Shown here: piece after piece, positions 8,024 to 39,734 of the stretch | How the letters are laid out: each line of letters opens with the position of its first letter | Numbering within the stretch: position 1 is the stretch's first letter | Source of the DNA: Fomitopsis serialis | Taxonomy: Eukaryota; Basidiomycota; Agaricomycetes; Polyporales; Fomitopsidaceae | Length of the DNA: 64,000 nt | NCBI RefSeq assembly: GCF_022376445.1 | Contig: NW_025954963.1 | Coordinates: 372,001-436,000, forward strand | Reading direction: 5' to 3' | Notes under the pieces: generated by a model | What the model was told of the DNA's origin: nothing | Database searches by the model: none | Seen by the model: the letters and a program-made list of their open reading frames with translations, nothing else | Made by a program: the position numbers and the translations under genes

Positions 8024-10883
8024 ATGTCTCCGCGAACTCGCTCCGCCGACTCGAAGAAACTCACCGCTCAGGCGAAAGCGACAGGATCGCGGGCTCGAAA
8101 GACCAACAAGGTAACCAAGACGCCAAATTCGAGCAAGGCGGCTTCCAAATCAGGCGGCGAGGCCCCGCTGTCCGCGAAGGAGCAGAAGCAACTCGAGCTG
8201 TTGCTCCGGAGACAGTCAGTTCAGAAAAAGAGTAAGGACGAGGAACATCAGGCGGGTGAGTGCGTTCTGCACGGCTGTTGAAAATAATTGATGAACGAAT
8301 CTATACTCAGGGGTGCGCAAGAGGACGGCTGAGATGACTCGCAAAGAACAAGGATCGGAGGATGAACATGAGGAACAGCCCCGTAAGAAAGCAAGGCAAG
8401 CTCGCGGTTCCGGCGGCGAGGGCGAGGGCGAGGGCGAGGGCGAGGGCGATGGCGATGGCGATGGCGATGGCGATGGCGAGGCGAGGGCGAGGGCGAGGGC
8501 GAGGGCGAGGGCGGTGGCGATGAAGGAAGTCCAGACAGCGGTAGTGAGCTGGACATTCGCATGGAGAGCCCTTCTCCTCCTGCTCGGTGTACGTGCAATC
8601 TCATAAGCTCAGAAGCTCTAACTAATACTGATGTATGTTTGAAATGAGCTAAACCTAAGCCGGCTTACAGGCGGTTGAAGAATCCCGAGCCGGACACGAG
8701 GAAGGGAGATGCCCCGTTGACCGAGGAAGAGCAGCGCATCGCACAAGCTATCGCCCGTAAGTCACATCGCATCAGGAGCTGCGTGTATCACTACTAACAC
8801 TGGTGTCTTAACGCACTCCAGCAAAGGGCAAGGCTAAAGAAAAGCCTGCGTCGAAGAAGTCGGTAGTCATTGAAAGCCCGGAGGCCTCGGAGCAGGAGAA
8901 CGTGTCTGTTCGCTCGGGATCGGCAGAGAAGGAGGATAGGTCTAGGCAGGGGGGAAAGGGGAAGGATGTTGTGCGCGGTAAGAAGAAGGCGTACGTGGAG
9001 ATCAGCGTTACAAGGGTGAGTATTGTATGTTATACGGACTTGAGAACCTGACGTGTTTGTCGATGAAAGGGCAAGAATACGTCCAAGTCCAAGATAGTCG
9101 CTTCAAGTTCGGAAGATGAGCAAGATGACGATGACAAGGTGGACGAGCTCGAATCATCGGACGATGACGGTGGCTCCCGGTTCTCGGTGCAGGGAGCAGA
9201 TGAGGACGGCGTGGATGACTCGGATGATGTGGTGGTAAGTGGTACTTGCGTTCATTCGAAGCGTTGACGTACAGACGCAGCGTGTAGGAGATATCTACGA
9301 AGGACGTGAAGAAACGCCGTAAAGGGAAGGGCTCTCAAGTAAAGGCTCGAGCGCGCGTCAAGGCTGCAGACCTGCCCATTGATATCCGTCCACTTGTCAC
9401 CGCTGCTCAGAACTTCCTCCGGCTTCGCCTTGCACTCAAAAACGCGTGGACCAGCGACTCCTCTGTGGCAAGTTCCCGTCTGCTGGACAACATGCAGCTC
9501 GTCGTCACTGCCTTGAAGGAGGCTCGTGACATGCGCGACAAGGACGGCAAGAGGGTGAAGAGTATGCGGGTCGCATATAACGAAGTGCAGGATAAGAAGG
9601 GGCACGAGGGAGATACACTGAGAAAGAATGTCCAAACAGTGGTGAGTTACGTCGTGGGTCTCAAAAATATCTTAAACCTTCATTCTCGGCAGGTCTGGAC
9701 GGTCGCCTCTCAGTTTCGATTCGACGTAAAGAAGAAAGCGAAGAGCGTGGTCGAACACGCGTACGGGCTGAACAGCCTGTCGGTTCAGCAACGGATATCG
9801 CTCGCCCAATGGCTCCTCAAAACTCACCTGATGAAGGTCAAGGGTGGCAAGCGTGAGATCCCTAACTTCGTGTTCGGTGACATGAGGATTATCTGGAACG
9901 CGAAGGATAAGCTAGACAAGGAGGTACGTACTCTATCACTAGACGTGTTTCCGACGTGTTGTTGCGTCGTGATACCCGCTAATCCAGGCGTGCAGAAATG
10001 CTCTGTCAAGTCAGAGCTTCTGTTTAGGCATCCTGCAATCTCGGAGATAATCGTGCAGCAGTGGTTCCAGGGTCATGCCACAGGCGTGCCTGTCGACCGC
10101 TTCAGCGCGGTCCCAGACAATCTCATCGCTTTGGTCTGCAACTCGGTAGGTTCCTGTTGCGATGTGTTTTCTGTAATGTGCTTATTATCGCAACGTCATT
10201 AGATAGATGCTGCGTTGAGCGAGATAGCGTTCGGGAATCAAGTAGCGTTCACCAACAGGGCCTTCGCACCAAAGTAAGTCATTCTACACTCCTCTAAGCA
10301 GTGATGTATTGACCAGTCGCTAGGTGGGACGATCTTATGTCAATACTCGAAGCTACGCAGAAGAACGCGCCCGACTACTACGCTGACATGAAGAAGCAAT
10401 TGTGGGCTCGTATAAGGTGAGTGCTCTGCGTTTCAGACGTAGGCAATAGTTACTTACTGATAGAATACTCACAGCTCCAGAATTGAAGGCGATGATGAGG
10501 AAGATTCGGACCAGGACGACGGGGAGGACTTCGTTAAGTGGACGAAGCTCCAGGACATGGTGCTCGAGGCGCCCACCGCCCCCTCGTCCTCGAACGCGGG
10601 TCCGGTGTCATCGTCGAGTACTGCGGCGAAGCCCTCGTCCGCCGGCAAACCTACATCGTCAAAGGGGAGAACCAGCGGGGCGCAGGGTAAGCAAACAGTG
10701 TACGACAGTATAGCTATGACTGATGGAAGCTTGCACGACACAGCGTCCTCGAGCAAGACGGTTCTTCCAGCTGAGCCTGGTGTGAGCAGCGACGGAGAGC
10801 AAGCGGGCACAGAGGGACAGGAGCGCGAGTATATGCCTGATACTCTTATGTCTTCTAGGGCTGACGTTGCGACACACAGGTAA
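8024..10883 (+). CDS. DUF6532 domain protein with low-complexity N-terminus (one frameshift)
   Basis: Predicted exons 8024-8255, 8311-8588, 8649-8756, 8822-9015, 9070-9234, 9288-9641, 9693-9923, 9996-10145, 10203-10273, 10324-10416 and 10475-10883 give about 761 residues if one base missing in the microsatellite at about 8480 is allowed for. The N-terminal third is basic and acidic low complexity. From about residue 340, RPLVTAAQNFLRLRLALKNA through LLFRHPAISEIIVQQWF, LIALVCNSIDAALSEIAFG and WDDLMSILEATQ matches the DUF6532 pattern common in agaricomycetes. The domain has no assigned activity. The tail is Ser/Ala-rich. The gene lies directly downstream of the dioxygenase on the same strand; a functional link is only a guess. 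The frameshift may be a real length change or an assembly error. Confidence 0.75.
8410..8517 (+). repeat. GGCGAG / GGCGAT coding microsatellite
   Basis: A hexameric array in exon 2 of the DUF6532 gene runs GGCGAG x5, GGCGAT x5, then GAGGGC units. In frame it encodes alternating Glu-Gly and Asp-Gly. At about 8479-8482 one G is missing (GGCGAGGCGAGG), which shifts the frame. The sensible downstream peptide (GDEGSPDSGSELDIRMESP) is in the other frame. Confidence 0.9.
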
Positions 10884-11515
10884 CGAACCTGCTCTGAACG
10901 CCGATACTGCCCACCCCTGATCGCCTACGCCAGCTGTCTGAACTCCAAGGGTACGACAGCTCATTTATCTTCGCTCTGGGCACTCACCTAAATTGTTTTT
11001 ATTTTCAGATTACCAATATCTACTCGCGTCTACTATACCCCACGTCCTTGGAGGTAACAATCTACTATGTACGTTGTCTCGCATTCGTTGCTGTGTGCTT
11101 GTAGTACGTTGCTATCGAGCCTGTTGTGCTTTTGCTGCATGTATATCAATGTTGTACCAACTATAGAAGCGTGAATGAATGAATGTAAGGGATCAGTGGA
11201 ATTAATAGGCATTGCTTGAAAGAATTAAGAGCTTGGTCTCAAGCCCAAAAGTAAAAGCTCCTTGAGAATAAGCACATAAGACTTCCATTGTAATGTCATG
11301 AATGACTTGGTCAAGGCATTCAAGCTGGGACGTTAGGACTGGTGAGAAGAGCACAAGTAATACTTATGGTCTCATACCCAAGTCCAAAATGCAGCTTTGC
11401 TAACTCTCAAGTCTTTCCCAAGAATAAAACGTAAATGACTTGTCTTTCTGCCTTTTATTACTTTAGATTACTTGAGAGCCTCTCAAGACACATGAGTTTT
11501 TCCTGATGTGTTATC
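10884..11515. other. AT-richer spacer, possible small non-autonomous insertion
   Basis: No convincing gene. Roughly 11160-11515 is clearly more AT-rich than its surroundings and carries repeated TTGAG/CTCAA motifs in both orientations, including a small palindrome CTTGAGAG-C-CTCTCAAG at about 11473-11489. Its right edge abuts the point where the gypsy integrase reading frame stops making sense (about 11515), so it may be an insertion that truncated the retrotransposon. I could not define terminal repeats or a target duplication. Confidence 0.4.
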
Positions 11516-11952
11516 CACCCAATTCAGCTGGTCCGGCGACACCATGGAGCGTAGGATCTGGGATACGGAGCGGATGGTCCTTTCCGACAATCCATCCGTC
11601 TGGGGATGGAATGAAGTGGACATCAACAACTTCGCACCCAATATGCGATGAACTTCACGCCAAAATTTGGACGTGAATTTCGAATCGCGGTCCGATACGA
11701 TGGATTCAGGCAGTCCATGCAGTCGCACGATCTCGCGGACATAAATCTCTGCGAGTTCGGCGGCGGTGGTGGTGGTCTTGATGGGGATTAAATGTACCAT
11801 GGACGTCAAACGGCATACCACTACCCACAGGTAGTCGTATCCGTTGACTTGTGGAAACGGTCCCACGAAATCCATGGACATCGATATCCATGGTCGAACC
11901 GGAATCGGGAGCGTATGCAGCCATCCCGCTTGGAGATGGTTGCGCGGCTTAG
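11516..11952 (-). pseudogene. Gypsy integrase core, truncated
   Basis: The frame resumes after the solo LTR with KPRNHLQAGWLHTLPIPVRP, then SMDFVGPFP (first catalytic Asp), a mid-domain VSDRDSKFTSKFW (second Asp) and SFHPQTDGLSERTIRSVSQILR (catalytic Glu region). The DDE triad region is therefore recognisable. The frame breaks after SPDQLNWVD at about 11515 and the C-terminal part is absent. The upstream zinc-binding part is at 12949-13100 and ends CGTCQT. The two join cleanly if the 988-bp insertion and one ACGT copy are removed. Confidence 0.9.
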
Positions 11953-11956
11953 ACGT

Positions 11957-12944
11957 TGACGCGACCGAAAAGAACACAAAAGCCACACAAAAACCCAACC
12001 GTGAGGTCGAGCAGTGGTATGCGAGGCCTCTGCGTCTATGAGATGTACGGGGGACTGTACAGTGGTCTAGGTAAGAAGGAGGAGGACGGACAAGACTCCG
12101 AACGACGTGGGAGAGCTTCGAAGATGTCGAAGACTGTTCGAAGGCGAGGGCTAAGCCTCGAAGGTAGGAAGGAGGGTTTCGACAGACGTGTCGAACGAAC
12201 GGTGACAAGGAAGGCGAGCGACGGCAGGAGAAGAAGTGTAGAGCCTCTCGGGGCAACTACGAGCTGGCGAACGTACTGGCGAACTGACTGACTGACTGAC
12301 TGGCTTCGAACGTACTGGCTGACTGGCGAACTTGCTGACTTTCGAACGTACTGACTGGCTGACGAACCTCGCCAGTGCGAGGTGAGATTGAGAGGGTAAG
12401 GGGGTCTCTGAGATTCGAAGGGAACCAGTCCCAGAGTATATACAGGGAAACACGGCTATTACCACTACGGAGCTCCGACGGCCCCAAACATCCGGCTATG
12501 GCTTCTAACACGTGACAACTGCTCTCGGGCTCGCTAACCAGTGGTCCGAAGGCCGACCGGCTATCACATGACGCCGGAAACCGAGACCACTCGTCGAGGA
12601 TGTGAGACGACCTGCAAGGACTCACTGGACATCCTGTAGCATCCTATGGTCTCGCAGGAGATCTTCTAACACCGTAGCACGTCTTCTAACATGTTCGAGT
12701 GTCTTCTAACACATAGTGTATCTTCGAGTGACCTGCGTGCTCTGGGGTCGTCTAGATAGGTGGGTAGGTGCTCCTATAGCGTCACTGAGGTGCCGGAAGG
12801 TCGCGGATAGTCTTCTAAGGTGAGCCAGGGTTGGCTACGAACTTCGAAATCTTCGAACAGTTGTAGTGGATCTTCTAAGAGCTTCGGAGCATCGTAGAGG
12901 CCTAGATTGCGTTTTCGGGGCTTAGATAGCCTAGAGGCGTATCA
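11957..12944. repeat. Solo LTR (988 bp) inserted in the gypsy integrase
   Basis: The insert begins TGACGCGACC and ends GCGTATCA, so it has TG...CA ends. It is flanked by a direct duplication ACGT (11953-11956 and 12945-12948). Removing it restores the integrase frame CQT-SKPRNH. It has no long reading frame. It contains a GACT/GAACGTACTGGCTGACT-rich stretch (12270-12390) and at least six copies of a CTTCTAA(C/G) motif (12480-12880). A solo LTR left by LTR-LTR recombination is the simplest reading. No matching internal region or second LTR is in the window. Confidence 0.8.
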
Positions 12945-12948
12945 ACGT

Positions 12949-15468
12949 CTGACAGGTTCCGCAGGTAATGCAGAACTTGTCTACGTCTCGTCCCAATTTC
13001 GGCCACCAGAACCACCGACGGATGTACTCAGAAGTCTTCTGAGATCCAAAGTGCCCTATCGTGGTATGTGCCTGGTCAATCACCACCTCCGTTAGGAGGC
13101 GGCGCTTGATCAGCGTCCTGGGTACACAGAGAACCTCTTCATGTTGACGGTTCTTCGTGTATATCAGTCCGTCGCGTACTACGAAGGTCTTGAACTGGTC
13201 CGGGGACTCCAGTACCTTCCGAAAAGTATGGTCGTCCGAGTACCCAGCCTTCATCGCGGAGATGAAGTCCGTGTCCCGTTCAACCTTCTTTCGCAAGGAT
13301 GGTCCATTGGTCAGTGACTCAGCAACCGTTGGCCCGTTGCCATTCCTTGATGGTTCCTTCTGAACCGGCGTGGACGTGGGCTGGGCGGCGGACAAGGCTG
13401 CTGCCTCAGCCTCGCGTTCGTGCTTGTTCTCGACGAGTGGATGGGATGCTAGTCTTCCCATTCGCAACTCGAGAACACGGTTCGAGGGTAGGTCATCGAA
13501 AGCGGGGTCCAGACGCACGTCCGCATTCACCATGTGGTGTATCGGAGTGACGTCGTCGGAAGTGTCGTTCTCGTAGTATCGAGACAGGCAATCCGCTACC
13601 TTGTTCTTTCTTCCTTCGACATACGTGATGTCGTAGTCGAAGCGGGACATGTACTCATACCATCGAACCTGGCGGTTTGACGGATTGGGTATCCCGTTGA
13701 AGAAAGTGAGGGCTTTGTGGTCCGTAATGATGTGAATCTTACGACCAAGCAACTTGTCTTCCCACTTGAGCAGGGCTTCCATTATTCCGAGTGCCTCTTG
13801 CTCATACGTTTTGTACGCGCGTTGAGCACTCGAGAATTTCTTGGACAGAAAGCCTGCAGGTCGACAAGTCTGCCATTCTGGTCCTTGACCGTACACGGCG
13901 CCTACTCCGAATAGTGAAGCGTCCGTGATCACCCAAATGGGTTCGTCAATCGAGGGGTCAATTGGCTTCAGTATGGGAGCCCGACTCACAAGTGCTTTGA
14001 TTGATTCAAAGCATTTGTCGTGCAGTGCTCGCCATACGAATGCTCGGTCGTTATGGCACATGTCGGCCAGCGGGGACGTATAGCCACTTACCTCGGGCAG
14101 GAAATGCGCGAGGTAGTTGACTAGTCCCAGAAACCGCTGCACCTCCTTGTACGAACGAGGTGTCCGCCAGTTGCGGATGCGATCCATCTTGTCTCGATCG
14201 GCGTGCAGTCCTCGGTCGTCTATGAGATGACCAAGGCAGTCCATTCGCTTCGAGTACAAGTCGCATTTCGTCTGACTGAGGTATAGCTTGGCCTTCCTCA
14301 GTCGGTCGAACACGATACCGAGATGTTTCTCGTGTTCTTCAACCGAGTTGGAGAATACGAAGATGTCATCAAGGTAAACGTGGACGAAGCGTCCGATGCA
14401 ATCTCTGAAGATCGCAGTCATTAGCGACTGGAATGTAGCAGGCGCGTTGCAGTCGCCTTGTTGCATCACCAGGCTAAGGAACGTGCCGTAAGGTGTAGAA
14501 AACGCCGTCTTCCAGACGTCTTCTGCAACAATACGGATCTGCTCATATGCGTCGGACAGGTCGATTTTCGATCTGTACTTCGCTCGAGCCACGTCCATTC
14601 TGATCTGGTCCTGGTCGGGAAACGGTGTCACGTCCTTTCGGGTATTGTCATTACGCTGTCTGGCGTCAACGACAGTACGCAGTTTGCCCGACTTCTTTGC
14701 AATGCAAAGTAGCGGAGCGGCCTGCGACGTTGATACTGGTTCCCACCATCCTGCATCTGAATACCGCTCGATCTTGTCGAGTAGCTGTGGTTTCATAGCA
14801 TCCGGGCACTTGGGCAAGCGGTACTTGTACTGCTTGTCCTGGTCGATGAGCGGAATATAATGGTTCACCTCCCGGAATGGCGGCAATCCGGGAGGTGGAG
14901 GCTTCATTATATCCTCGCACTTCTTCAACCACTCTTCGCGCAGTGCGTCGAGTTGTGGGTCTTCATTCAGGGACTGGCGTATCTCCTCGTCGACAAGGAA
15001 GTTACGCACAGCTCTGTCAACCTCGTCGTTGGTTCCATACGGATCCAATCGACCGAGTTTGTCTCGCTTGGGCTGCTGCGATGAGTGAGGCATCGGTGGA
15101 TTGTCCTCGCTCAGTCGTGGCAGTTTCGCTGTAAACTGATTTCCTCTGTTTACAGGCACCTTCTGCCGAGGCATCACCACTTCTACTGTTAGATGTGGTG
15201 GCGGTCGGTCTGAAGCCTTCAATGTTGGGTTGCGTACCACCTGCGGCGCCGTAGGTGGTACCAACTTCTTCGTTGTTCTATCCACAATAGAAGCGACTTT
15301 TGGGTCGCTCCCTTCCCCCCTCAAGACCTTGTTTCCTTCTTCCGCATAGCGAGACAGGGGGGCTGCGCAGCGGTGGATCTCGCTACGCTGCCCTATTGTC
15401 TTGAGGTGGTAGCAGCACGTAAATGCGCCGCTACCCTGTCTTGACGATTGTTTCGGCGGTGTTCCCAC
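12949..15468 (-). pseudogene. Gypsy pol: reverse transcriptase, RNase H, integrase zinc finger
   Basis: One open frame of about 840 codons. RT runs from about KLRTVVDARQRND through DLSDAYEQIRI (first catalytic Asp region) and FVHVYLDDIFVFS (YLDD, bases 14365-14376). RNase H follows with WVITDASLFGVG, YEQEALGIMEAL and ITDHKAL. The integrase HHCC finger is H...IGHFGSQKTSEYIRRWFWWPKL...FCITCGTC. It would copy element RNA into DNA in cytoplasmic particles. The frame has no ATG near its beginning; its open part begins in a different frame from protease, with a TAG between, so expression would need repair or frameshifting. It is counted as a pseudogene because the integrase is disrupted. Confidence 0.9.
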
Positions 15469-15576
15469 ACCTCAGCCTCCTGGACGGGGTGTAGGCAGGG
15501 ATGTCTACGCCGTCAATCCAGATCTTCCGCGTACGAAAGTCTAGGACCACGTTATGCGCATTGCAGAACGTGGTGC

Positions 15577-18155
15577 CTAGCACCATATCATACCGGTGAT
15601 GTCAACGACATCGACGTAGTTGACGTTGTTGACGGGGCCAACCGTAATCTTCGGCAGCGCACCATAATTTATGGTGGTGCGACTGCCCTTCGTTCCAAGC
15701 TGCAGGTTGATCTGCTCCTTGAGATCAACCCTGTCAGCCTTGGACAGGTACGCCAACTCCGGTGATATAGTGTCGGTCGTGCACCCTGTGTCAAACAGAG
15801 TGTACGCCTTCACGCCGTTGACGTCGACTTCCGCGCATAGTGTTCGCTGCGAGTCGGGGGCGCGCTTGGGCTGGTCTTTCGGATCCGACGTTCGTCGAAT
15901 CTTCGAGTCATATAGCCAGGCTGCCTTCATCGATCTCGCCGAGGGCATGACTTGCATGGCACACGAGCGCACGATGTCGGTCATTGCGGCATCGTACGAC
16001 TGGTGGGCCAGCTGTTCATGGCGCTGTTGGGTCGACTGTTGTCGCTCAATCCGCATCGCACCCATCCACATTGAACCCATGTGGACGGTGTGTCCCTCTT
16101 CGTCATCTTCGCTACGATCGTCCACAGGAGAGTTTTCTCCTGGGTCATCGTATGCGTAGTCTCCGTAGTCGGACTGAGGGTGCTGGTCGGTTTCGATACC
16201 TGTCCTAGCATCCTCAGTGTCCACTGTGTTGACTTCTTCCCGTTCCGACGTCTCTTCGACCGGCTGGTCAGTCTGATGCATGGCGTCCGCATCGCTTTCT
16301 TCAGCGACGCGTCCGGCATGCATCTGGACCTTCTTCGGGTACGTCTTGCTATAACCTCCGTATGGACGACCATCGGTGGTCGTCTTGCCGGTTGGAGCAG
16401 GAGTCTTCTGGAACCTGCTGGCCGATCCATCCATCTGGTTCCCAGACCTGAAGTTCGCACCGTCCATCTGTGTGCCTGTCTTGAATCGTGGTACAAAGGG
16501 TTTCTTCCCCTTGTTCAACGACTGACCACCGCCGGTATTCTTGTTACTGGTGGTGGCAGGCGTTGCTGCCTTCGTATTGGCACTACCACCATCCTTGGCG
16601 GTAGTTACCATACGTTGCAGCCACAGCGCCGATCCCGCTTTCTGAGATCGCTGGGCATGCTCGTACTCATTGGTCTTCTCAATGATCTCCTGCAGCTCAG
16701 ACCTCTCCGGTGTGAGCATGCAAGTGTTCCTGAGGTGGTTCTCGACGTCGCGGGGAAGGGCAGACATAAATTTGCCTTTCCACACGTACGGGCTTGGCTT
16801 CTCAGCCATACGTTCGCCATACCGAGTCAACCGGTCGATCAAGTCTATGGCACCGCCCTTCTGGGTGTATTTCGCGCCATAGAATGCTTCGGCCGCCTCG
16901 ATCTCACCATCCCGTCGGATGTACCGCTCATGTAGTATCATTATTACATCGGCGAACATCCAGGCGGGCTGGTTCGGTTTCGTATAGTTTATGCTACGGA
17001 TGTACCACATACTGGGTTCCCCAGTAAGTGAGTCGCCTAGCATGCGGAGCCTATCCGCGTCCATCCGCGGTCCTGTTACGCGGAGCGTCTGGAAGTACGA
17101 GAGGAGCTTGTAGAGCCACTCTTCGAACTTGTACAGATCGTCTTCGCCGCTCCAGGCCGCAGGGGTTTGAAGCTTAACGGATCGCAGGTACATGGGAGGG
17201 TCATCCATCGGTGGATCCCCTACCATGGTCTGGATCATGTTCCAGCACTTCTCCCTCGACCTTGCCAAGGGGTCTAACGCAGTTCGCGTGCGTGCTGGGG
17301 CGGTGCTTACGCTCTGAGGGTCCCGGCTCGTACCCATGTATGAGTACGCCTGGAATCTCCCATAGCCAACCCCGCCTTCTTTCGCCTTGGTTGGGTCGTT
17401 CCCGGAGTTAGAAGTGCTTGAGCCTCCAACTCCTGGTTCGAACACAACGTTCGGTTTCGGGGGAACTGGCGGTATAGGTACTCCACTTGCTGTGTACCTA
17501 TAACCGTCGTTCTCGGTCCTTGTTGCACCGCCGCCGGTTCTCGGTGGAGGTGCGGGACCCGGCATGTGAGGGGGCGGATCCTTTGATGGTACAGGTCCGT
17601 CCTTCATCTGGAAGAACGCGTACCCCGGCCCCGATGTACGGTACGGAGACCTAGTGAATCCCGGTTCACCAGGTCTCGGTTTCCGTGGTTCCGTTGGTAC
17701 GGGACCCGGGGTTGGGGGTACTGCTTGGGCAGTGCCTCCTAGGGTACTGGCTAGCCGTTCCGTGGCTGCCATTCGCCTCGCGAATTCCGCATCCGACTCG
17801 TTCCTTCCCTTGGGGAGGACCAAGTTTGCTGCTGCGAAACTCATGTTGGGATCCGCGTTGATATCCGGCCGCGCCGGTGTCGAGGTCGCCGCTGGGGGCG
17901 TCCTTGGCGGCGGTCGCTGCGTCGGTATATCATTCGACGACTCGTCTTCAGTTTCAACGGTCGTAGGCCTAGCCTTCCCCCATCCGCCGAACATGCTTTC
18001 TGCTCGTTCCGGCCTTTCACGCTCCTTGCCTTTGCTCATGGGCGGACTCGACTTCCGAGGCGACGAACTTGGTTCGTCTGTCTCGTTGTCGGCCTCCGTT
18101 CCCGATTCTCCTCCTGGCTTGTTCGGGATTCTTGCCTCGACGTAGTTGACCATTT
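15577..18155 (-). pseudogene. Gypsy gag (C-terminal part) and retropepsin
   Basis: The open frame from 18153 downward encodes a Pro/Ser/Thr-rich region, a capsid-like segment (AWSGEDDLYKFEEWLYKLLSYF...WYIRSINY...WMFADVIMILHERYI) and an aspartic protease (AYTLFDTGCTTDTISPELA; the DTG codons lie at 15784-15792). It ends prematurely at 15577, because a single missing base at about 15594 shifts the frame before the expected DMVLG protease motif. The apparent ATG at 18153 is internal to gag: the true start is at 39734, and the two parts share the 10 bases TTGACCATTT created by the KDZ insertion. There is no zinc knuckle in the visible gag. Confidence 0.85.
18146..18155. repeat. Target-site duplication of the KDZ composite, left copy (TTGACCATTT)
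   Basis: TTGACCATTT here is repeated at 39231-39240. Joining the outer flanks at one copy makes the gypsy gag continuous: DFMNEM from the right side runs into VNYVEARIPNK on the left side. This defines the insertion. The right copy is itself split by the later LTR element, whose own duplication ATTGA overlaps it. Confidence 0.85.
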
Positions 18156-18160
18156 GAGCC

Positions 18161-18250
18161 GTTGCAGGGAAGACCTGTACTATTTTACGATTATTTAGTC
18201 ACTTAACAGTACTACTGAAATGAGTTTTAAGTGACTTCACAGTGTAAGTA
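18161..18250 (+). repeat. Left terminal inverted repeat of the KDZ composite
   Basis: Imperfectly matches the reverse complement of 31640-31727. Shared blocks are AGGG..GAC, GTACTATT, TATTTA.TCACTT, AGTACTA/AATACTA and AAGTGACT. The spacing is kept within a few bases. The alignment was done by eye, so the exact length is uncertain. Confidence 0.65.
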
Positions 18251-18289
18251 TTGATGAGCATGAGTCTCGTAACAAGTACCTATGATGTA

Positions 18290-18515
18290 ATTCATAACAA
18301 CAGTACTTGAATTGTATGGAGTACTTGTCTAGTGCACCCGCTACAACAGTACTTGTGGTCGTAAGTAGTACCTGTCAAGCCCACTCGTGACAACAGTACC
18401 TATGATCATCAGCAGTACTATTTGTCAATCCCAGTCGCGACAACAGTACCTGTGGTCATCAGCAGTACTTGTCGATCCCAGTTGTGACAACAGTACCTTC
18501 GGTGAAGTACCTGTC
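18290..18515 (+). repeat. Left subterminal array, about 47-bp units
   Basis: Four to five degenerate tandem units of about 47-50 bp, each with ACAACAGTAC(C/T)T and a second GTACTTGT/GTACCTGTC half (for example GTGACAACAGTACCTATGAT). It is the likely transposase-binding region and a mirror image of the right-end array. Confidence 0.7.
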
Positions 18516-18917
18516 GGCCTGATTCATCACTCCATCATCATCGACTTGAACGTGTGTACTTGAGATCACATGAGTTGAGGTGCAATACAGTACTGACGAG
18601 CGGTGTACAAGCGAGAGCATTCAAGTTGAGTGGGGGATAATATTAATAACGAGGTGGGCACTCAGGCCCAATATAAGTACAAGCAGCACTGACGAGAGAC
18701 ATAGTCAAAACACAAGAGATACAAGAATTAAGAGTGAGAGGGGGGAGAGATTGAGGCGAGGAAAATGGGTCGAAAGAAGGGCGACACGTCAAAGACGAGA
18801 GGACTGGTACCAGATCGGGAAGGAGTGTGACGAGAAAAAGGAAGGTAATGTACGACGCGGAACCCCGTGAAAGTATACTATTCTTCTTTTAGTTGGAGCA
18901 CGACCTTCGTTGTCCTA

Positions 18918-31284: not shown

Positions 31285-31313
31285 TGTGGTTCACGGTGGC
31301 AGGTACTTGGAGG

Positions 31314-31440: not shown

Positions 31441-31639
31441 CGTCACGGTGTATGGATGTTCTCGATGAGTACTTTAGGAACGAATGTTCTCGGTAGGTAC
31501 TTTGAGTACAGATGTTATTGATGAGTACACTGGGAATGGATATTGTCGGCAAGTACTTATTCTGTGCTTGCAGTCGGATAGTACTGCCATACTGAGTGTG
31601 CCTAATTAGGCAATCAACTGTGAAAAAATGGCAAGTACT

Positions 31640-31727
31640 TGGATTTAGACAGTCACTTTGAAGTCGCGACAATAGTATTATAAAGTGAATAAATAGTAGC
31701 AGAATAGTACTTGTGTCCCCCCTACTA
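31640..31727 (-). repeat. Right terminal inverted repeat of the KDZ composite
   Basis: Read inward from 31727 on the minus strand: TAGTAGGGGGGACACAAGTA, then CTATT, CTATTTATTCACTT, AATACTATTG and AAAGTGACTG. It matches the left end block by block. The LTR element inserted 4 bp further right, in the flanking duplication. Confidence 0.65.
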
Positions 31728-31731
31728 TTGA

Positions 31732-31934
31732 TGTAACGGATATTCCCGTTACGGTATATCTTATCTCATATGATTGTTCTTGTTTGTTCGAGGGCTCGTA
31801 TGGCGCGCCAGCGCACCTACGAGACCTCAGTCCTTTACCATCCTCATCGCCCCATGTATGCTACGTGTAGACAGTCCCTCTGAATAGAGACTGGGTACAG
31901 CGCATACCGGGCCCGAGGATTAAGGGACGCTACA
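31732..31934 (+). repeat. 5' LTR of the hairpin element
   Basis: 203 bp, starting TGTAACGGATATTCCCGTTA and ending AGGGACGCTACA. The first bases form a small palindrome GTAACGG...CCGTTAC. Indistinguishable from the 3' LTR in a base-by-base comparison by eye. Confidence 0.95.
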
Positions 31935-31946
31935 CTTTTTTGCGCT

Positions 31947-31967
31947 CCAGAACAGCTTCTGTTCTGG
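31947..31967 (+). repeat. Perfect hairpin 12 bp after the 5' LTR
   Basis: CCAGAACAG-CTT-CTGTTCTGG, with 9-bp perfect arms and a 3-nt loop. It sits where a primer-binding or packaging signal is expected. No obvious tRNA-complementary TGG primer site directly follows the LTR. Confidence 0.85.
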
Positions 31968-32055
31968 GGACTATCTACTCTAGGCAACAACCTGGAAACT
32001 TCGAATTTCTATGCTTTACATCCAAATCTAGTCAACTTCGCAACCACTCAAGAAG

Positions 32056-35000
32056 ATGGCTGGATCGACAACCAAGTCTCCCAAGCACTCGCGTAGTACT
32101 CGGGAGGCCCACCGCGCGAAGGTCGATGCGAAGGTGGATGGACTTCTTGACAGTTTTGCGAAATTCTTGAAGAGTATCCCGGTCGAGACACGAGCCACCC
32201 CCGATAGGCGGTTCCGGACACTCGATGACTCGATGAAGCATCTAGATGATGATATCACATCGTTCAGACGCTCCGTGGAGCAGGACAACGAGTCCAGACG
32301 TCACCGTCGCACGACCTGCCGGACTGAGCTCTCAGACCCCGAGAACTCGTCCGGAGCACTCGCGAAGCAGGCACCGTCCGACCGCGAGGTCGAACGCACA
32401 GCACACGCAGAACTGTTCGAGCCCAAGGTCGAGCCCATTCAGAGCTGCCAGGAGAACCCGACTCCGCCTGTTCCAACCGAGCCACAGGAGCTGGAAAGCT
32501 CTCCGACGAGTGGTGCGCGCACCGAGATCGACAGCGCTGCCGCTGTTGAGCCCGTGTCTGAGCCCAAGGGGTCGCGTCCTGAGCAGATCGAGCCCGACAT
32601 CGAGACTGCTCAGAGATGTCCGGAGACTCCGTCTCCGATTGCTCCCAGTGAGCCGACCAAGCTCGGCACCACACTCAAGAGTGGTGCACGCGCTAGGTTC
32701 GTCGACGCCGCCGTCGCCGAGCCCGAGTCCCAGTTGTCCGACAAGATGACTCGGTCCTGCGCCCGGGAAGGCATAGGGACGCGACCTCACGTCGCATCCC
32801 CGGATGTAGACGAGCTTCTGCTCGTAGATCCACATGTCGCGTGCTCAGAAATGAGCCGCGACTCAAAATATACAACTATCGCGCCGGACGACGTGCCCGA
32901 CGCGGCCAGCATCGAGCTCGACGCTCAATGCGTCGAGCGTCACGCGCACGCGCCGAGAGCAAGCACTCCCAGCGGTAGCGCCGGAAGTACTCCTCTCAAT
33001 GCTAACCGCCACCTCGACCTCCACACTGGCAGCCACCGCCCGCGTGCAACCGCGTTCCAACCCGGTTCGCACTTCCCAACGGAAGTGCGAGCCGCGCTCT
33101 GTCTTTGGACAGCTGAACCCTTCGCGGTTCAGCTGAAGGATCGACCGGTCAGTACCGACCGCCACCTCGCGGTCGGCAACCCCTCCGACGACCTGGCACC
33201 TCGCGGTACAAGACCGCCAGATCCTTACTCTCCGATCCTTTCCCTCCGCCCTCGCGCCTCGCATCTTGACTCAGGAGGCTCTCCTCTCGAGTCTCATGAC
33301 TCTGGCGACACCCGTCGCGGCTCTGGCGACACACAGCCCAGCCGCACGATCCAGGACTCACACGACCCGCGTGCAAGTCCAGCACCAGGCAACCAGGCTG
33401 CGCGAACCACGGGAAACGCGGAGCGAGGAGAATGCGAGGAAATCAGGAAAAGGAAGGAGGGGGAAGGGTGCGGGGCGAGCCTGAAAGACGAGCAGAGAGA
33501 CTCAATAAACGCAGGTACGCCCTTGGTGGACGTATCCCACTCGCCACCGCCTCCTTCTCCAATGCCCACGCTGGCACATGTATCGACGACCACACAGGTC
33601 GTCGTATGTATAGCAGGCCAGGAAGGCGGCACTGTCGTGCTGCGGCACGACCTGACCGTCGTGCCCATTGGTCTGCAAGGTAGCACTATTGCGATATGGG
33701 ACGACCTCGCGGTCGTACCGTACATTCCGCGAGGCGACACAGCGGACGCGCCGCAATACACGTCCGACGTGCCCCATCCAGCATTCACCAGCTGTCGCGT
33801 AGCGAGATCGAGGATCGAGGGTACGCCCATACTGGACGTACCCAACTCTCCACCGGTCCTCTCGCTCGTACCCAAGCCAGTGTGCACTTCGACGAACGAG
33901 AAGTCTGTCGTGCGCACTACTGGCCACAGGGACGGCCTGTACGCGCTGCGGGACGACCTAAGGGTTGTGCCCTCCTTTTCTCGAGGCAGTATGCCTGTGA
34001 TACGGGACGACCTCGCGGTCGTACCGGCCAGTCCGCAAGGCGACACAGTGGACACGCAAAACTGCTCGTCCAATGTGACTGGTGTCTCCACGAACACGCC
34101 TGGAGCTGCAGCAACAGACGGAATGTCTGTGGTACGCACGGGCGGCCACGATGATCGCGCGAGAGCGATACGGGACGACCTCGCGGTCGTACCGTTCACT
34201 TCGCAAGGCGATACGGCGGACGCGGCGCAAAGCACGCCCGACGTGTTCCACCCAATATTTGCCAGTCGTCGCGTAGCGAGTATGCCGAACTGTTCGCTCG
34301 ACGTGCAAGCTACCGACCAGCAGCAAGACTTGATGCTCGAGGGTACGTCCATACTGGACGTACCCAATTCTCCGCCGGTCCTCTCCCTAGTACCCAAGCC
34401 AGTGCGCACGTCGACGAACGAGAAGTTTGTCGAGCGCGCTACTGGCCATGGAGACGGCATGTACGCGTTGCGGGACGACCTAAGGGTCGTACCCTCCGCT
34501 TCTCAAGACAGTATGCCTGTGATATGGGACGACCGCGAGGTCGTACCGTCCACTTCGCAGTGCAACGCGCTGGACTTGCAGTACCGCATGTCCGACGTGT
34601 ACCTTGAGACCGTCACCATCCATAGCGTAGCGGCCTCAGAGCTCGAAGATACACCCATGCGGGACGTATCCAACTCCCCGCATGCTCTATTGACAGCGCC
34701 CTGGTGTACCAACGACTGCGAAGTCGTATCTGCTGTTCCGCCTAGCGATGCGGCTGACGTGCCATGTCGCACGTCCGACGTACCCTGTTCATCCACGAGC
34801 AGCGGCAACATAGTGGAAGGCACGCCCTTAAGGGACGTACCCACCTCACCAACACCCGCATCGGCGAACGCGGAGCTCATTGGAAGCTCTGTGGGCCACG
34901 ATGATCGCACGAAAAAGATACGGGACGACCTGATGGTCGTTCTCTCCGACTTTCAAGGCAATACGTTTGTGATACGGGACGACCTCGCGGTCGTACCGTC

Positions 35001-36480
35001 TGTTCTGCAAGGCGACATGACGGACGAGCAGCATTGCTCATCCAACATGTCCCAGTCATCTGTACACACTACCGGTGAGTACAGAGTGTCGAGAAGGATC
35101 AGGACGCCCTCGGTGGACGTACTTATCTCGACATCTGCCATACCCACGTTAGTGTGCGTAATGGCGAATGTAGAGCCCGTTGGGCACAATGCCCGCGGTT
35201 CGTCGGGCCACCGTCTCTTCATATCCGCCTTCATGATCCATTGTGATCATGGAGATGACAGCACGTTCACATCTCGGGACGACCTTCAGGTCGTACCGGG
35301 ACCCGTCATTCGCCAAGGCGAAGCCGGGTATGCACAGCGCTCTGAGCAGCCCGAGACTGCCGTCGGGTCTGCTCAATGGCACCTGGAGGCACTGCCATCC
35401 CGAGGTGTCCCGGCCCAAGCGACGAAGCTAGGCATCACCCCGAAGGATGATGCACGCGCCGAACTCGAAGACACGTCCGTCATCGAGCTCGCATCCGAGC
35501 CGAACGAGTGGTGCGTCGAGTCGACGCATCTCCGCGCTCGGGAGGGTATAGGCACACAGTACTACAACAGTACTGTGTACAACGGGAACGAGCCCGCGTA
35601 CGTAGGTACACTCGTCGCGCGCTCAGAGATGAGCAGCGACACAAGAAATATATTATTATTGTCGAATGATGGGCGCGCCACGACGAGCAACCTGCTCGGC
35701 GCGACGCGCGACGCGCTCAACACTACGGGCGTTGAGTGTCACGAGTCCGTGGCGAGCGTCCCGAGCACTAGCGCCCACTGTGCTGCGCTGAGCCTCCACC
35801 GACTCTTCGTCCTCGACCCCTTCCACTATCTGGGCAGCCAACTCGAGCGCGCGTCTGGCGAACCAGACGCGCGCGCCGCCCCAACGCGAGTGCGAACTCG
35901 CGCTCGCAACTGGCTGGCTGACTTGCCGCCAGTCCAGTCGGTGGCGACCGACGACCTGGTACCTCGCGGTACCAGATCATCACTTCATTCGTCCCCGGCT
36001 CATCTCCCTTCTCCCCACACCTCGCGCCTCGAATTGGGAGGTCTCCCTACCGATTCTGGCGAACCTGGCGACCCCTACCGCGGCTCTGGCGACACGCAAC
36101 CCAGCCACGCGACCCAGGACTTGAACGACGCGCGTTCAAGTCCAGCGCCGAGCAGCAAGACGGAGCGGACCACGTATAACGAGGAGCGAGGAGAACGGAA
36201 GGAGGACAGAGAGGAGAGGAGTAGCGAGGATGAGCAAGGAACGCAGGGACAGAGGGAGGAAGGGTACCGGGCGAGCCGGAAGTACGAGCACGACGGCTCG
36301 ACAACCACAGGCGTAGCGACGAACGAGAAGATCATCGTGCGTCCTGCTAGCCACGAAGATGGCACTCCCGTTCCCAGGTACGACTGCGAAGTCGTACCTG
36401 AGGTCCATATGGTAGCACGTCCGTGCTGCGGGACGACTTCAAGGTCGTACCCTCCACATCTGCTGTGCCCGCGCCAGTAG
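32056..36480 (+). CDS. Giant repeat-rich open reading frame of the hairpin element
   Basis: ATG at 32056, 1474 codons without a stop. The first 80 residues are charged and helix-like (REAHRAKVDAKVDGLLDSFA, SMKHLDDDITSFRRSVEQD), possibly a gag-like or coiled-coil head. The rest is a mosaic of recurring peptide modules such as GTPILDVPNSPPVLSLVPKP, RTTGHxDGxxALRDDLRVVP, IRDDLAVVPxxxQGDTxD and ExSSDTR/GSGDTQPSxxxQDxxD. Two large blocks (about 33000-33480 and 35800-36290) are diverged copies of one another. Each LDVP and DDLxVVP module coincides with a DNA hairpin. No known domain. Whether it is translated is unknown; the conserved peptide sense of modules in several frames argues it once was. 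Confidence 0.6.
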   Translation: MAGSTTKSPKHSRSTREAHRAKVDAKVDGLLDSFAKFLKSIPVETRATPDRRFRTLDDSMKHLDDDITSFRRSVEQDNESRRHRRTTCRTELSDPENSSGALAKQAPSDREVERTAHAELFEPKVEPIQSCQENPTPPVPTEPQELESSPTSGARTEIDSAAAVEPVSEPKGSRPEQIEPDIETAQRCPETPSPIAPSEPTKLGTTLKSGARARFVDAAVAEPESQLSDKMTRSCAREGIGTRPHVASPDVDELLLVDPHVACSEMSRDSKYTTIAPDDVPDAASIELDAQCVERHAHAPRASTPSGSAGSTPLNANRHLDLHTGSHRPRATAFQPGSHFPTEVRAALCLWTAEPFAVQLKDRPVSTDRHLAVGNPSDDLAPRGTRPPDPYSPILSLRPRASHLDSGGSPLESHDSGDTRRGSGDTQPSRTIQDSHDPRASPAPGNQAARTTGNAERGECEEIRKRKEGEGCGASLKDEQRDSINAGTPLVDVSHSPPPPSPMPTLAHVSTTTQVVVCIAGQEGGTVVLRHDLTVVPIGLQGSTIAIWDDLAVVPYIPRGDTADAPQYTSDVPHPAFTSCRVARSRIEGTPILDVPNSPPVLSLVPKPVCTSTNEKSVVRTTGHRDGLYALRDDLRVVPSFSRGSMPVIRDDLAVVPASPQGDTVDTQNCSSNVTGVSTNTPGAAATDGMSVVRTGGHDDRARAIRDDLAVVPFTSQGDTADAAQSTPDVFHPIFASRRVASMPNCSLDVQATDQQQDLMLEGTSILDVPNSPPVLSLVPKPVRTSTNEKFVERATGHGDGMYALRDDLRVVPSASQDSMPVIWDDREVVPSTSQCNALDLQYRMSDVYLETVTIHSVAASELEDTPMRDVSNSPHALLTAPWCTNDCEVVSAVPPSDAADVPCRTSDVPCSSTSSGNIVEGTPLRDVPTSPTPASANAELIGSSVGHDDRTKKIRDDLMVVLSDFQGNTFVIRDDLAVVPSVLQGDMTDEQHCSSNMSQSSVHTTGEYRVSRRIRTPSVDVLISTSAIPTLVCVMANVEPVGHNARGSSGHRLFISAFMIHCDHGDDSTFTSRDDLQVVPGPVIRQGEAGYAQRSEQPETAVGSAQWHLEALPSRGVPAQATKLGITPKDDARAELEDTSVIELASEPNEWCVESTHLRAREGIGTQYYNSTVYNGNEPAYVGTLVARSEMSSDTRNILLLSNDGRATTSNLLGATRDALNTTGVECHESVASVPSTSAHCAALSLHRLFVLDPFHYLGSQLERASGEPDARAAPTRVRTRARNWLADLPPVQSVATDDLVPRGTRSSLHSSPAHLPSPHTSRLELGGLPTDSGEPGDPYRGSGDTQPSHATQDLNDARSSPAPSSKTERTTYNEERGERKEDREERSSEDEQGTQGQREEGYRASRKYEHDGSTTTGVATNEKIIVRPASHEDGTPVPRYDCEVVPEVHMVARPCCGTTSRSYPPHLLCPRQ

Positions 36481-37912
36481 GCGTACCGACGAACTTGAAG
36501 CTCGTCGTGCGCACTACTGGCCACGAGCCTTGGGTGCACATGTACCGGGACGAATCGAGAGTCGTACCGGCCACTACACATGGCGACACCGCGGACGCGC
36601 AGCGTTGTACGTCCGACGTGCCCTTCTCAGTCACCACCAACCAGCGTGGTGGAGGTACATCCTTGATGGATGTACCCAACTTGCTATTCCCTGCGACAGT
36701 CCCCGGGCCAGCCCACATTTTGACGAGCGATCTCGTCGTACGCGCTGGGGGACACGAATACGGTACGCCCGTAATACGGGACGACCTCGCGGTCGTACCG
36801 TTCATCCCGCAAGGCGACACGGCGGATGCGCAACCTTGCACGTCCGACGCGCCCCACCACACCGCGATCGCGCTGCGCAACGACCAAATGGTCGTGTCTT
36901 CCGCACTGCAAGGCGGTGCACCTGTGCTAAGGGATGACCTCGCGGTCGTACCTTGGCTCACGCATAGCGGCACGCTTGTAACCGGGGACGACCCCCAGGT
37001 CGTACCCGGACCTTCCACACTGCAAGGCGACACGGCGGACGTGCAGTACCGCATGTCCGACGCGCCCCACCAACCCAAGACCGGTTGTCGAGTAGCGGGT
37101 ACATCCCTAATGGACGTACCCATCTCGACATCATCCTTGCCCGGGATCAGGCACGCTCTGCAAGAGAGCACACCTACGCTAGGGACGACCTCGCGGTCAT
37201 AAACCCCAAATTGCAAGGCGGCACGATGGACATGCAGCGATGCATGCCCAATGTGCCCAATTCAACCTCGACTGCACGCGATGCGGCGTGTACGTCTAGC
37301 CCGCTGCTCGACGTACACGGCGTCAGTGATCACCATCCTCCAATCATTACTGACCTCCCGTTGGCTAGTCGCACCGTGCAGGACAGCCTGTACGTCCCCG
37401 CGGAAGTACGGGTCCCTGGCTGCTTCAGCGCAATTGAACCACTAGTGGTCCAACTGGCCGAGCTGCGGGACGACCCCGACAACCTCTTTCGCGAATTCCT
37501 CGACCTTCTGTCCGGTAGCGACATGTTACGCCCGGCCCCGCATCAAGACGGTCCGCACTTCATCACGGAAGTGCGAACGTCCAGTGCAGTTGAACCCGCA
37601 GTAGTTCAACTGACAGGGTCGGGGAACGGCATCGATTCCGTCCCTGATGATCCCCACTCACGCGCGGCCACCTGTCCAGAAGACTTGCACTCCCAACAGG
37701 AAGTGCAAGCCCCCGGTCCCGTCAAGACAGCTGAACCATTCCCGGTTCAGCTGGGAAGCCTGCGATACGACCTCGACCTCGACCGGTTGAGCGAACACCA
37801 CTCTCGTTACGAACCAAGCGCTCCGGCGACGGCGCAGCTCGACGATTGCGTAGCCCTAACGGACGCGCGAGCTCAAGACCGTGACCGAGTTGCTGCACTA
37901 CGTGTAGTGTAG
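36423..37912 (+). pseudogene. Frame-shifted continuation of the giant frame
   Basis: The same peptide modules continue in a second frame (36423-37202: RDDFKVVPS, GTSLMDVPN, IRDDLAVVPFIPQGDTADAQ) and then a third (37085-37912: LLDVHG, HFITEVRTSSAVEPAVVQL, LHSQQEVQAPGPVKTAEPFP). The shifts lie near 36410 and 37190. Each looks like a one-base indel because the module sense is preserved across it. In such a young insertion the shifts were probably inherited from the source copy, so an uninterrupted protein may not be needed for mobility. Confidence 0.65.
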
Positions 37913-39026
37913 CAGCCGGCGCCTACGGACCCTGACCGACCAGAACGGTCTCCCGACCCTCAACTCGGCGAGAACTTTACAGTTCTCGCCGAGGATTCGC
38001 CCCCAAGGACCCACACCTTAACCCCTATCGACCTCCCTGCGGCCCTCGACACCCATGGCGACTACGACAGGCGCCACGAGTCGGCAACCTCGCATGTACC
38101 CTGGAGATCACGCGAGGAATGGAAGGATGGAGGAAATGTGGACAAGGGTGCGGAACCAGGAGAATCTGATGAGGAAGGTCAGGCAGAAGGAGGAGAGGAG
38201 GAAGGGTGTGGTGTAGGCGAAGAAGACGAGCCTGCGAGCTCGAAAAGCAAAGGTACGTCCTTATTGGACGTACCCTCTTTATTTTGCACCACCATTCCCT
38301 ACCCCGCAATCACCACCCGTGATGACCATGACAACCGCATTGGTTGTCGTGGCAGTCACTGTATACAACAGTGGTACAGTCGGTCCGGGGGACGACCTGC
38401 GAGTCGCACCCGGCACGACGATGCATCGCGGTACAATCGGCGAGTTTACTTGCTCGACCGATGTATCCGGTCGGTCTGTAGCCCACGCACAGACGTTGGG
38501 CCTCTCCGTCGACGTCCACGATGAGGAGGTCGACGGTGAATTGAGAAGTGAGTACCTTGAGGTACTCGTCCCACCATCATTACCTCGCATCCGCCCACGA
38601 CAGTCACGTCGGTCGTGTCCAACACGGTCGCGCATCGGATTCATGGGGCGCAGAGATCGAGCTTCATGCTTGACGTACATGTTGCTGAGCTCGCCGGCAA
38701 ATTGTCCGCGATGTGTCAGAAGAACTTCACAGTTCTCCGACCTTGCTACCTGTATTATCATCAGCATTACCTTGTTGCTGACATTCTCATGTCGCCATCA
38801 TGAATTTGGCTTGCATAACTCCACTGAGTTATGTATGACAATAGTGGACGGCTGTGCTGCTCACTGACGCGACCTAGTATGTCGTTGTCTACAGTACGGC
38901 ACCACTATTGTATTGCCAGTCGCTACCACCGTTGGGTTGTCGCGTGTTTTATTCCTTTCTTTTCCTCTTTCCTTTTAGTTTCTCTGGTTATCTCTGGGAC
39001 CCGTGGTCGTGTCCAGTGGGGGAGGG
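37913..39026 (+). other. 3' internal region of the hairpin element
   Basis: There is no continuous gene, but module remnants persist (GTSLLDVPSLF at about 38252, GDDLRVAPG at about 38390) together with perfect hairpins (GGTACGTCC-TTATT-GGACGTACC at 38252-38274; CATAACT...AGTTATG near 38812). A purine tract, GGGGGAGGG at 39018-39026, abuts the 3' LTR and is the likely plus-strand primer site. Confidence 0.75.
37964..37993 (+). repeat. Longest perfect hairpin in the element (13-bp arms)
   Basis: CTCGGCGAGAACT-TTAC-AGTTCTCGCCGAG, perfect 13-bp arms and a 4-nt loop, lying beyond the stop of the last long module frame. A smaller relative, AGAACTTCACAGTTCT, occurs near 38720. Confidence 0.95.
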
Positions 39027-39229
39027 TGTAACGGATATTCCCGTTACGGTATATCTTATCTCATATGATTGTTCTTGTTTGTTCGAGGGCTCGTATGGCG
39101 CGCCAGCGCACCTACGAGACCTCAGTCCTTTACCATCCTCATCGCCCCATGTATGCTACGTGTAGACAGTCCCTCTGAATAGAGACTGGGTACAGCGCAT
39201 ACCGGGCCCGAGGATTAAGGGACGCTACA
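39027..39229 (+). repeat. 3' LTR of the hairpin element
   Basis: 203 bp, TGTAACGG...GACGCTACA, identical by eye to 31732-31934, followed by the ATTGA duplication. Confidence 0.95.
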
Positions 39230-39240
39230 ATTGACCATTT

Positions 39241-39734
39241 CGTTCATGAAATCAGAAATCTTCAACTCCCGCGTTGAGATCCCTTCTTAGCTGGATGAAC
39301 TTGGCCTCGGACTCACGCTGAAGAGCCTCGATAGCCTCCGTGTTGGCTGCTCCGAGTCTCTTAGCATGGCCTCGAATCGCCAGGATCATCGCCGATGCGC
39401 CCGACTGAGTCCCGCGACGGGACCCAGGTGAACCCTTCGGTTTGGCTGACATCGAGCGTGCAGATTTACTGGCGTTGCTCAACTTCTTTTCCTCGGGCGT
39501 TCGGACACGTCCGCTTCCTTCCGGACGTGCCGGAGATATCCTCGCTGAATGAGGTCTGGCTCCGCTGTCTGGTGACGCAACCAATCGTTCGTCACTAAAC
39601 ACGCGAGCTCCTCTCGGCGATACTCTCGACGTATAAGGTTGTTCACCTCGCTTCGGTGATCCACCCAATTGGGGTGGATCCACGGGCGAGTTAGCTCCTT
39701 TCGGAGAGGGGGACTCAGGTGCTTGGTCCGCCAT
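39241..39734 (-). pseudogene. Gypsy gag, N-terminal part (displaced)
   Basis: The ATG at 39734 starts MADQAPESPSPKGANSP, followed by a basic Ser/Arg-rich region and a helical stretch (AIRGHAKRLGAANTEAIEAL...KFIQLRRDLN). In this frame it stops at 39252. One base later the frame continues LKISDFMNEM and then, across the 21-kb insertion, VNYVEARIPNKPGG at 18150. So this is the 5' end of the same gag as 15577-18155, broken by a one-base shift and by the KDZ insertion. Confidence 0.85.

Follow-up and report, generated by a model that had tools for sequence, protein, structure and literature searches.

Rickettsia palindromic elements are inserted mobile repeats that lie inside reading frames, and non-autonomous long terminal repeat (LTR) elements of the LARD and TR-GAG types have LTRs, target duplications and a polypurine tract, no pol, and ends shared with an autonomous element. 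In RNA viruses with genome-scale ordered RNA structure (GORS), as summarized in PMC7642675, stem-loops occur throughout the genome, pairings are poorly conserved and paired sites show less diversity; the folding-energy excess (MFED) is ~15% in SARS-CoV-2 and reaches 23.4% in the highest case recorded there. Among retrotransposons, the nearest case is that of the maize Sireviruses (Copia), in which palindromic structures occur in cis-regions of the LTRs and an excess of small RNAs is reported to map to them (Bousios 2016, cited in PMC10760457). Here we describe an LTR element at positions 31732-39229 of a 64,000-nucleotide stretch of the Fomitopsis serialis genome (contig NW_025954963.1, positions 372,001 to 436,000; hereafter the window). 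The hairpin density of this element and of its probable Ty3/Gypsy partner is about ten times that expected by chance, and purifying selection on the base pairing of the hairpins is well supported. We consider it rather probable that the element belongs to a young non-autonomous LTR family that is kept folded by purifying selection on pairing, a trait shared with the Ty3/Gypsy lineage that probably mobilizes it.

Comparison with described systems

By analogy, the closest known property is GORS. We calculated MFED from the predicted folds of 350-nt fragments; it was 16.6-20.2% in four element copies and 23.9-29.6% in three Gypsy copies (5.5 kb each), compared to -1.6 to 8.0% in six controls. On the opposite strand, the corresponding values were 15.6-20.1%, 24.8-26.2% and -2.7 to 6.1%, and at least 96% of fragments had positive MFED in each element and Gypsy copy. 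The Gypsy values lie above the record of 23.4% given in PMC7642675, with a fragment step and shuffling that differ between the two studies. The element resembles the GORS viruses in that predicted structure extends genome-wide and includes coding regions; in that pairings are poorly conserved between relatives (the two Gypsy subfamilies have just 4 of 59 hairpin sites in common, one subfamily being represented by a copy with only 13 hairpins, L047); and in that paired sites are less variable (divergence: arms, 4.1%; loops, 13.5%; remaining sequence, 11.5%). It differs in being part of a fungal LTR retrotransposon lineage, with LTRs, target duplications, a polypurine tract and a partner that has reverse transcriptase (RT) and integrase, rather than a positive-strand RNA virus; in addition, many of its stems form perfect palindromes at the DNA level, and G·U pairs are not preferred.

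Relative to LARD and TR-GAG elements, the F. serialis element has in addition its hairpin array and its own single open frame of 1657-2202 codons, which is kept in 9 of 21 copies and matches no Pfam family where scanned. With the Rickettsia elements it shares palindromes within reading frames, whereas its hairpins appear to have arisen mostly by substitution in resident sequence. The Sireviruses, as described in PMC10760457, are likewise LTR retrotransposons in which palindromes accompany strong predicted structure; their palindromic motif is clustered in the LTRs, whereas the hairpins described here are mainly internal, coding, mostly unrelated in sequence, and part of a Ty3/Gypsy lineage. 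Among the literature matches listed, judged by titles and abstract openings and with few subscription journals represented, there was no report of fungal LTR elements with such a hairpin array.

Hairpin excess in the element family

Within the F. serialis genome (66 Mb, 806 contigs), a 21-base LTR-end pattern matched at 75 places (≤2 mismatches), corresponding to roughly 37 elements. We examined 21 full-length copies, of which 19 were aligned together and two (L040 and L041) were added later. Pairwise identity among the 19 copies was 71-100%. A script identified 5-bp target duplications around 17 of the 19, as well as around L040 and L041. Because both LTRs are identical (over 197-203 bp) in 18 of the 19 copies, the family is young. 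Its LTRs, target duplication and polypurine tract are those of a non-autonomous LTR retrotransposon, and no pol domains or other Pfam families were found in the three frames scanned (the window copy, L018 and L013; best E value 0.18, for L018 and L013). The dN/dS of the element frame was 0.52-0.73 (15 comparisons). At one locus (C257:285604-299320; L010 and L011), the LTR ends lie 13.7 kb apart, ~2 times the usual length, possibly reflecting a nested insertion.

We counted non-overlapping, perfect hairpins with arms of ≥7 bp and loops of 3-8 nt. The window element contains 30 (arms of 7-13 bp), compared to a mean of 2.7 and a maximum of 6 in 20 dinucleotide shuffles, and its open reading frame contains 18, compared to a mean of 3.5 and a maximum of 10 in 30 synonymous-codon permutations. 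Across the 19 aligned copies, we found 25-41 hairpins each (shuffle means of 2.0-3.6); raw counts for L040 and L041 were 33 and 32. In the nine open frames, 18-32 hairpins were present against 2.9-3.8 under synonymous-codon permutation. The remainder of the window outside its Gypsy remnant was near expectation (positions 1-10500, 4 vs. 3.4; 18701-31000, 4 vs. 4.5; 39233-64000, 8 vs. 9.4). These controls rule out chance as the origin of the hairpins. Arm lengths drop quickly: with loops of 0-60 nt allowed, a 14-bp arm was found in only 1 of 542 distinct hairpins. Known RNA families (Rfam, gathering score) gave no match within 31700-39300.

The dense array had been proposed from the window sequence alone, together with dinucleotide- and codon-preserving shuffles as a check, and the far lower counts in both controls bear it out. 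Some details of the original prediction required revision. The inverted repeat GGTACGTCC...GGACGTACC, reported at seven places, is perfect at 34342, 36654 and 38252 and carries mismatches at 33514, 33820, 34819 and 37098; GACGACC...GGTCGT, said to occur over a dozen times, was counted 11 times. Hairpins do continue past the end of the long frame, as reported, and the reason is that the frame of the window copy is interrupted.

A relative of the element protein is present in Rhodofomes roseus (P0003), with a similar N-terminal stretch and an acidic, tyrosine-rich C-terminus; only three matches were found among 7981 scored candidates, and F. serialis itself supplied two of the three. The L018 frame (1-2202 aa) and residues 399-1686 of P0003 correspond to a giant protein without a known family whose ends are similar in both species and which looks disordered by eye. 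In a degenerate-codon hairpin test, the R. roseus protein scored z 5.5, and two regions expected not to score (the frame of Gypsy copy L044 and residues 1-398 of the R. roseus protein) gave z 2.8, so this result is no more than suggestive.

Conservation of pairing among copies

Pairing was compared in eight disjoint copy pairs (seven element, one Gypsy), each counted in both directions. From pair counts in general, hairpins gapped in the other copy were excluded (3395 hairpin comparisons in the 19-copy alignment and 36 in the Gypsy comparison). Divergence was lowest in arms (354 of 8550 sites), compared to loops (322 of 2383) and the rest of the sequence (9358 of 81191). Of the 16 directions, 15 showed lower divergence in arms than in the rest, and in the other (L016 to L017) the two were equal. 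Two-sided changes of a pair occurred 50 times, compared to 6.3 expected, and 38 of the 50 restored a Watson-Crick pair; examples include GCGAGGACGA...TCGTCCTCGC vs. GCGAGAACGA...TCGTTCTCGC and GACGTCGACT...AGTCGACGTC vs. GACGTGGACT...AGTCCACGTC. The L042/L048 pair contributed the Gypsy part of this signal (10 doubles, 7 Watson-Crick, both directions). Tree-based analysis gave 154 two-sided events, compared to 78-116 with slid partners. The suggestion that arms stay complementary while their sequence varies therefore agrees with the double changes, which are mostly compensated, though single changes are commoner.

Fourfold-degenerate sites had changed at 46 of 800 positions in arms and 882 of 6734 elsewhere (ten directional comparisons), which indicates that the constraint acts on the nucleic acid; together with the synonymous permutations, this rules out protein constraint as the cause of the hairpins. 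We also simulated neutral evolution along the copy tree, with divergence matched and with substitutions only. Starting from three hairpin-rich roots, simulated tips retained means of 6.7-8.1 hairpins, with a maximum of 16, compared to the 25-41 observed. By parsimony on the element copies, pair losses outnumbered gains (528 vs. 175).

A probable Ty3/Gypsy partner

The original prediction concerned the hairpin array of the window element; the trait is also found, more strongly, in its probable Ty3/Gypsy partner. A decayed remnant of this hairpin-dense family lies within the window at 10501-18700, with 15 hairpins compared to 2.65 in shuffles and a 5.5-kb core that is 94% identical to L047. A better-preserved relative of 10 kb at C158 (L042) has 204-bp LTRs at about 48017 and 57871 and domains for RT, RNase H and integrase; its central 5.5 kb contains 35 hairpins, compared to 2.3 after shuffling. 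Copies L042, L048 and L049 have 35, 40 and 31 hairpins, respectively (1.4-2.1 in shuffles). A second subfamily, 71% identical to the first, shows a smaller excess (L047, 13 vs. 1.9; window remnant, 9 vs. 1.5). Density is thus ~4-7 hairpins per kb in element copies and one Gypsy subfamily and 2.4 in an intact-looking member of the other.

Sequence similarity between the element and the C158 Gypsy copy is found at the ends: 77.8-79.5% identity over 72-73 nt in the U5/post-LTR region and 70.5-72.4% over 224-225 nt at the 3' end (3' untranslated region [UTR] and polypurine tract). The Ty3/Gypsy element probably supplies RT and mobilizes the element in trans. Nearly all L042 hairpins have arms unrelated to those of the element, a common 7-mer core being present in only 3 of 35.

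What is selected

Several observations weigh against a family kept folded by selection on pairing. In the eight copy pairs, uncompensated single changes outnumber doubles (224 vs. 50), and they comprise 74 changes to G·U, 92 to A·C and 58 others; polarized on the tree, the events number 148 for G·U and 214 for A·C, and standing single mismatches occupy 21 G·U and 57 A·C alignment sites. Between Gypsy subfamilies, arms are as diverged as their surroundings (L042 vs. L047: arm identity 0.70 and 0.73, rest 0.71), and two-sided changes among L042, L047, L048 and L049 occur at 3.4%, compared to 3.1% in slid controls. Other elements of the same host show little of the trait: Gypsy L044 has 2 hairpins vs. 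2.1, and six Copia loci have one each vs. 0.6-1.75, in a small sample whose Copia controls, judging by equal RT scores, may include near-identical loci, and Gypsy L043 (C788:152500-157500) has a weak excess of 6 vs. 1.6 with an MFED of 3.2%.

Individual hairpins are not conserved across the Gypsy subfamilies, and so their conservation is visible only among closer copies. Subfamilies and partners each have their own arms, loops and hairpin positions while density stays; on our reading, the object of selection is being folded, not the particular hairpins. The other loci sampled (two Gypsy, six Copia) have little or no excess, which favors a lineage-specific need over general evasion.

G·U commonly replaces Watson-Crick pairs in structural RNAs. 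Here, G·U is not tolerated over A·C, and therefore the stability of the sense RNA alone is not the conserved target; both strands, or DNA, are possible targets, and simple selection on sense RNA finds no support in a mismatch spectrum without G·U preference. Instead of marking a single folded strand, the spectrum suggests that A is preferred in the sense strand. The 5' arms are A+C-rich and the 3' arms G+T-rich: 92 of 136 distinct element hairpins have this asymmetry and 31 the reverse (Gypsy, 45 vs. 15 of 65), and the asymmetry is gone in shuffles (76 vs. 69 of 156 for the element; 18 vs. 25 of 44 for Gypsy).

Possible functions of the folded state

Tentatively, shielding of both RNA strands is the single most likely function; packaging follows closely, as does a role in cDNA or on both strands. 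The array would trap the sense strand and the antisense strand alike in local stems, most of them too short for Dicer; strands trapped in this way would neither anneal to each other nor offer open targets to small RNAs. The host genome contains Piwi- and RdRP-family matches, which makes shielding testable.

Packaging or compaction is possible, at a somewhat lower probability. Hairpins could serve as many weak, sequence-independent sites by which the partner's Gag recognizes or condenses genomic RNA, and a parasite would need them too. Consistent with this, the partners share the trait but, beyond their ends, no internal sequence; the trait is absent or weak at the remaining Gypsy and Copia loci of the sample; loops are most often 4-6 nt long; and the average spacing of hairpins with arms of ≥6 bp is 110-140 nt (five copies). 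A sense-RNA role of this kind predicts tolerance of G·U, however, which was not observed, and no hairpin sequence is common to both elements. GNRA-like loops are enriched 2-6-fold over uniform expectation, yet this holds for either orientation and is partly due to related families, so that they are not decisive.

More doubtful is a DNA-level or both-strand role, in which perfect inverted repeats would be needed either by single-stranded cDNA or by the two RNA strands alike and any non-Watson-Crick pair would count as a break. The mismatch counts given above, with G·U no better tolerated than A·C, and the similar folding-energy excess on both strands point in this direction. A predominance of A·G over C·T standing mismatches (32 vs. 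9 sites) instead hints at the sense strand, and we know of no mechanism that needs dozens of cDNA hairpins. It is equally doubtful that the lineage is selected for perfect inverted repeats per se, irrespective of protein, sequence or place, as a palindromic texture that the parasite must wear for the machinery of its host element and for which wobble pairs would be insufficient.

How the hairpins arose

Substitution in resident sequence followed by selection, rather than insertion, fits best as the main origin of the hairpins, as judged from the alignments. When L042 was aligned to L047, 30 of its 35 hairpins were gap-free, 140 of 246 pairs were Watson-Crick in L047, and loop identity was 0.61. 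Mobile hairpin insertion is not supported, as L042 hairpins are mostly gap-free and arms are mostly unrelated between the element and Gypsy. The likeness to Rickettsia palindromic elements that had been drawn from the window does not hold on the same grounds, and the three copies examined have no clear frame preference (reading phases fairly even, at 9/8/8, 14/10/8 and 7/7/4).

A mutational origin, in which template switching by RT perfects imperfect palindromes without selection, is improbable. In its favor, hairpins are found in all reading phases and in two elements that one RT probably serves, and the opposed base composition of 5' and 3' arms also speaks for it. In the second Gypsy subfamily, divergence from L042 is greater in 3' arms (L047, 26 vs. 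20 in 5' arms; window remnant, 23 vs. 12; few hairpins), and 8 of 23 multi-pair gains were confined to one arm. On the other side, the remaining 15 of 23 involve both arms, and gained pairs on element copies were near-symmetric (5' arm, 88; 3' arm, 75; both arms, 12). The 5' and 3' arms of the first subfamily changed about equally against L047 (L042, 67 vs. 63; L048, 65 vs. 59; L049, 54 vs. 52), without exceeding the rest in divergence. Arm-to-arm correction would, by our reasoning, leave arms at the background rate, and arms between closer copies diverge at ~1/3 of background (~3-fold lower), which disfavors correction. Template-switch copying is thus disfavored by near arm-symmetric gains and arm conservation, with the second Gypsy subfamily leaning the other way. 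Where the original prediction had invoked selection or copying acting on structure, selection stands (conserved arms, free loops, compensation, fourfold constraint, excess over neutral decay) and copying does not, given gains on both arms, L042 arms no more diverged than their surroundings and the reduced arm divergence among element copies.

A by-product of coding and amplification, whereby protein repeats such as RDDLAVVP were palindromic by accident and then duplicated, is very unlikely: direct repeats of 60-268 nt do occur within the element and one hairpin family follows them, but most of the excess is lost on synonymous permutation, element copies hold 136 distinct 7-mer cores, fourfold sites in arms are constrained, and the Gypsy pol gene, unrelated in sequence, is also in excess (23 vs. 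2.1 in the control).

Features of the window

Coordinates of the element and its Gypsy relative are collected in Table 1. The 5' LTR opens with a hairpin, GTAACGG-ATATTC-CCGTTAC. A version of the longest perfect hairpin of the window copy is found in all 19 aligned copies, and the 3' UTR hairpin at 38814-38833 is found at the 3' end of the Gypsy element too. Tandem arrays rich in GTACT/AGTACT lie at 31170-31528, just upstream of the 5' LTR, and at 18320-18498, by the start of the Gypsy remnant; the two groups are alike by eye and may derive from related leaders. Elsewhere in the window are a KDZ transposase frame at 28563-29588 (+), marking another mobile element, and a 104-bp unit in near-perfect tandem duplication (98% match) at 55674-55881.

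Table 1. Positions of the LTR element, selected hairpins and the Gypsy remnant within the window.
Feature	Position	Strand	Description
Gypsy remnant	10501..18700	-	Decayed; hairpin-dense Ty3/Gypsy family; aspartyl protease, RT, RNase H and integrase zinc-binding domains
Target-site duplication	31727..31731	.	ATTGA; second copy at 39230-39234
5' LTR	31732..31934	+	203 bp; TGTAACGG...CTACA; same sequence as 3' LTR
Post-LTR stretch	31935..31950	+	Conserved, CTTTTTTGCGCTCCAG; presumed primer-binding region; Gypsy element similar here
Long frame	32056..36480	+	1474 aa in window copy; interrupted relative to 1657-2202-aa frames in 9 of 21 copies
Hairpin array	32400..38860	+	27 perfect hairpins with arm ≥7 and loop 3-8, of which 13 have arm ≥9
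Hairpin	33067..33090	+	TCGCACTTCC-CAAC-GGAAGTGCGA; L024 version re-paired in outer part, TTGGCACTTCC...GGAAGTGCCAA
Hairpin	33110..33135	+	CAGCTGAACC-CTTCGC-GGTTCAGCTG; identical arms with different loop at 37728-37753
Hairpin	34341..34365	+	GGGTACGTCCA-TAC-TGGACGTACCC; in L013 and L015, GATACGTCCA...TGGACGTATC (G-C to A-T)
Hairpin	36654..36676	+	GGTACATCC-TTGAT-GGATGTACC; re-paired variant of GGTACGTCC family
Hairpin	37964..37993	+	CTCGGCGAGAACT-TTAC-AGTTCTCGCCGAG; longest perfect hairpin in window copy
3' UTR hairpin	38814..38833	+	CATAACTC-CACT-GAGTTATG; L027, L032 and L033 have CACAACTC...GAGTTGTG
3' UTR, polypurine tract and LTR start	38813..39033	+	72% identity to C158 Gypsy 3' end
Polypurine tract	39015..39026	+	AGTGGGGGAGGG
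3' LTR	39027..39229	+	203 bp

Implications

RNA viruses are known to fold their RNA along the whole genome, to a purpose that is unsettled. A multicopy retrotransposon and its natural parasite, sharing mainly their ends and their foldedness, open this question to comparison. If the hairpins serve packaging, copying or escape from RNA interference, the pairing of the element with Gypsy would separate that need from protein coding, and the absent G·U preference provides a sharp, testable clue to the molecule that is selected.

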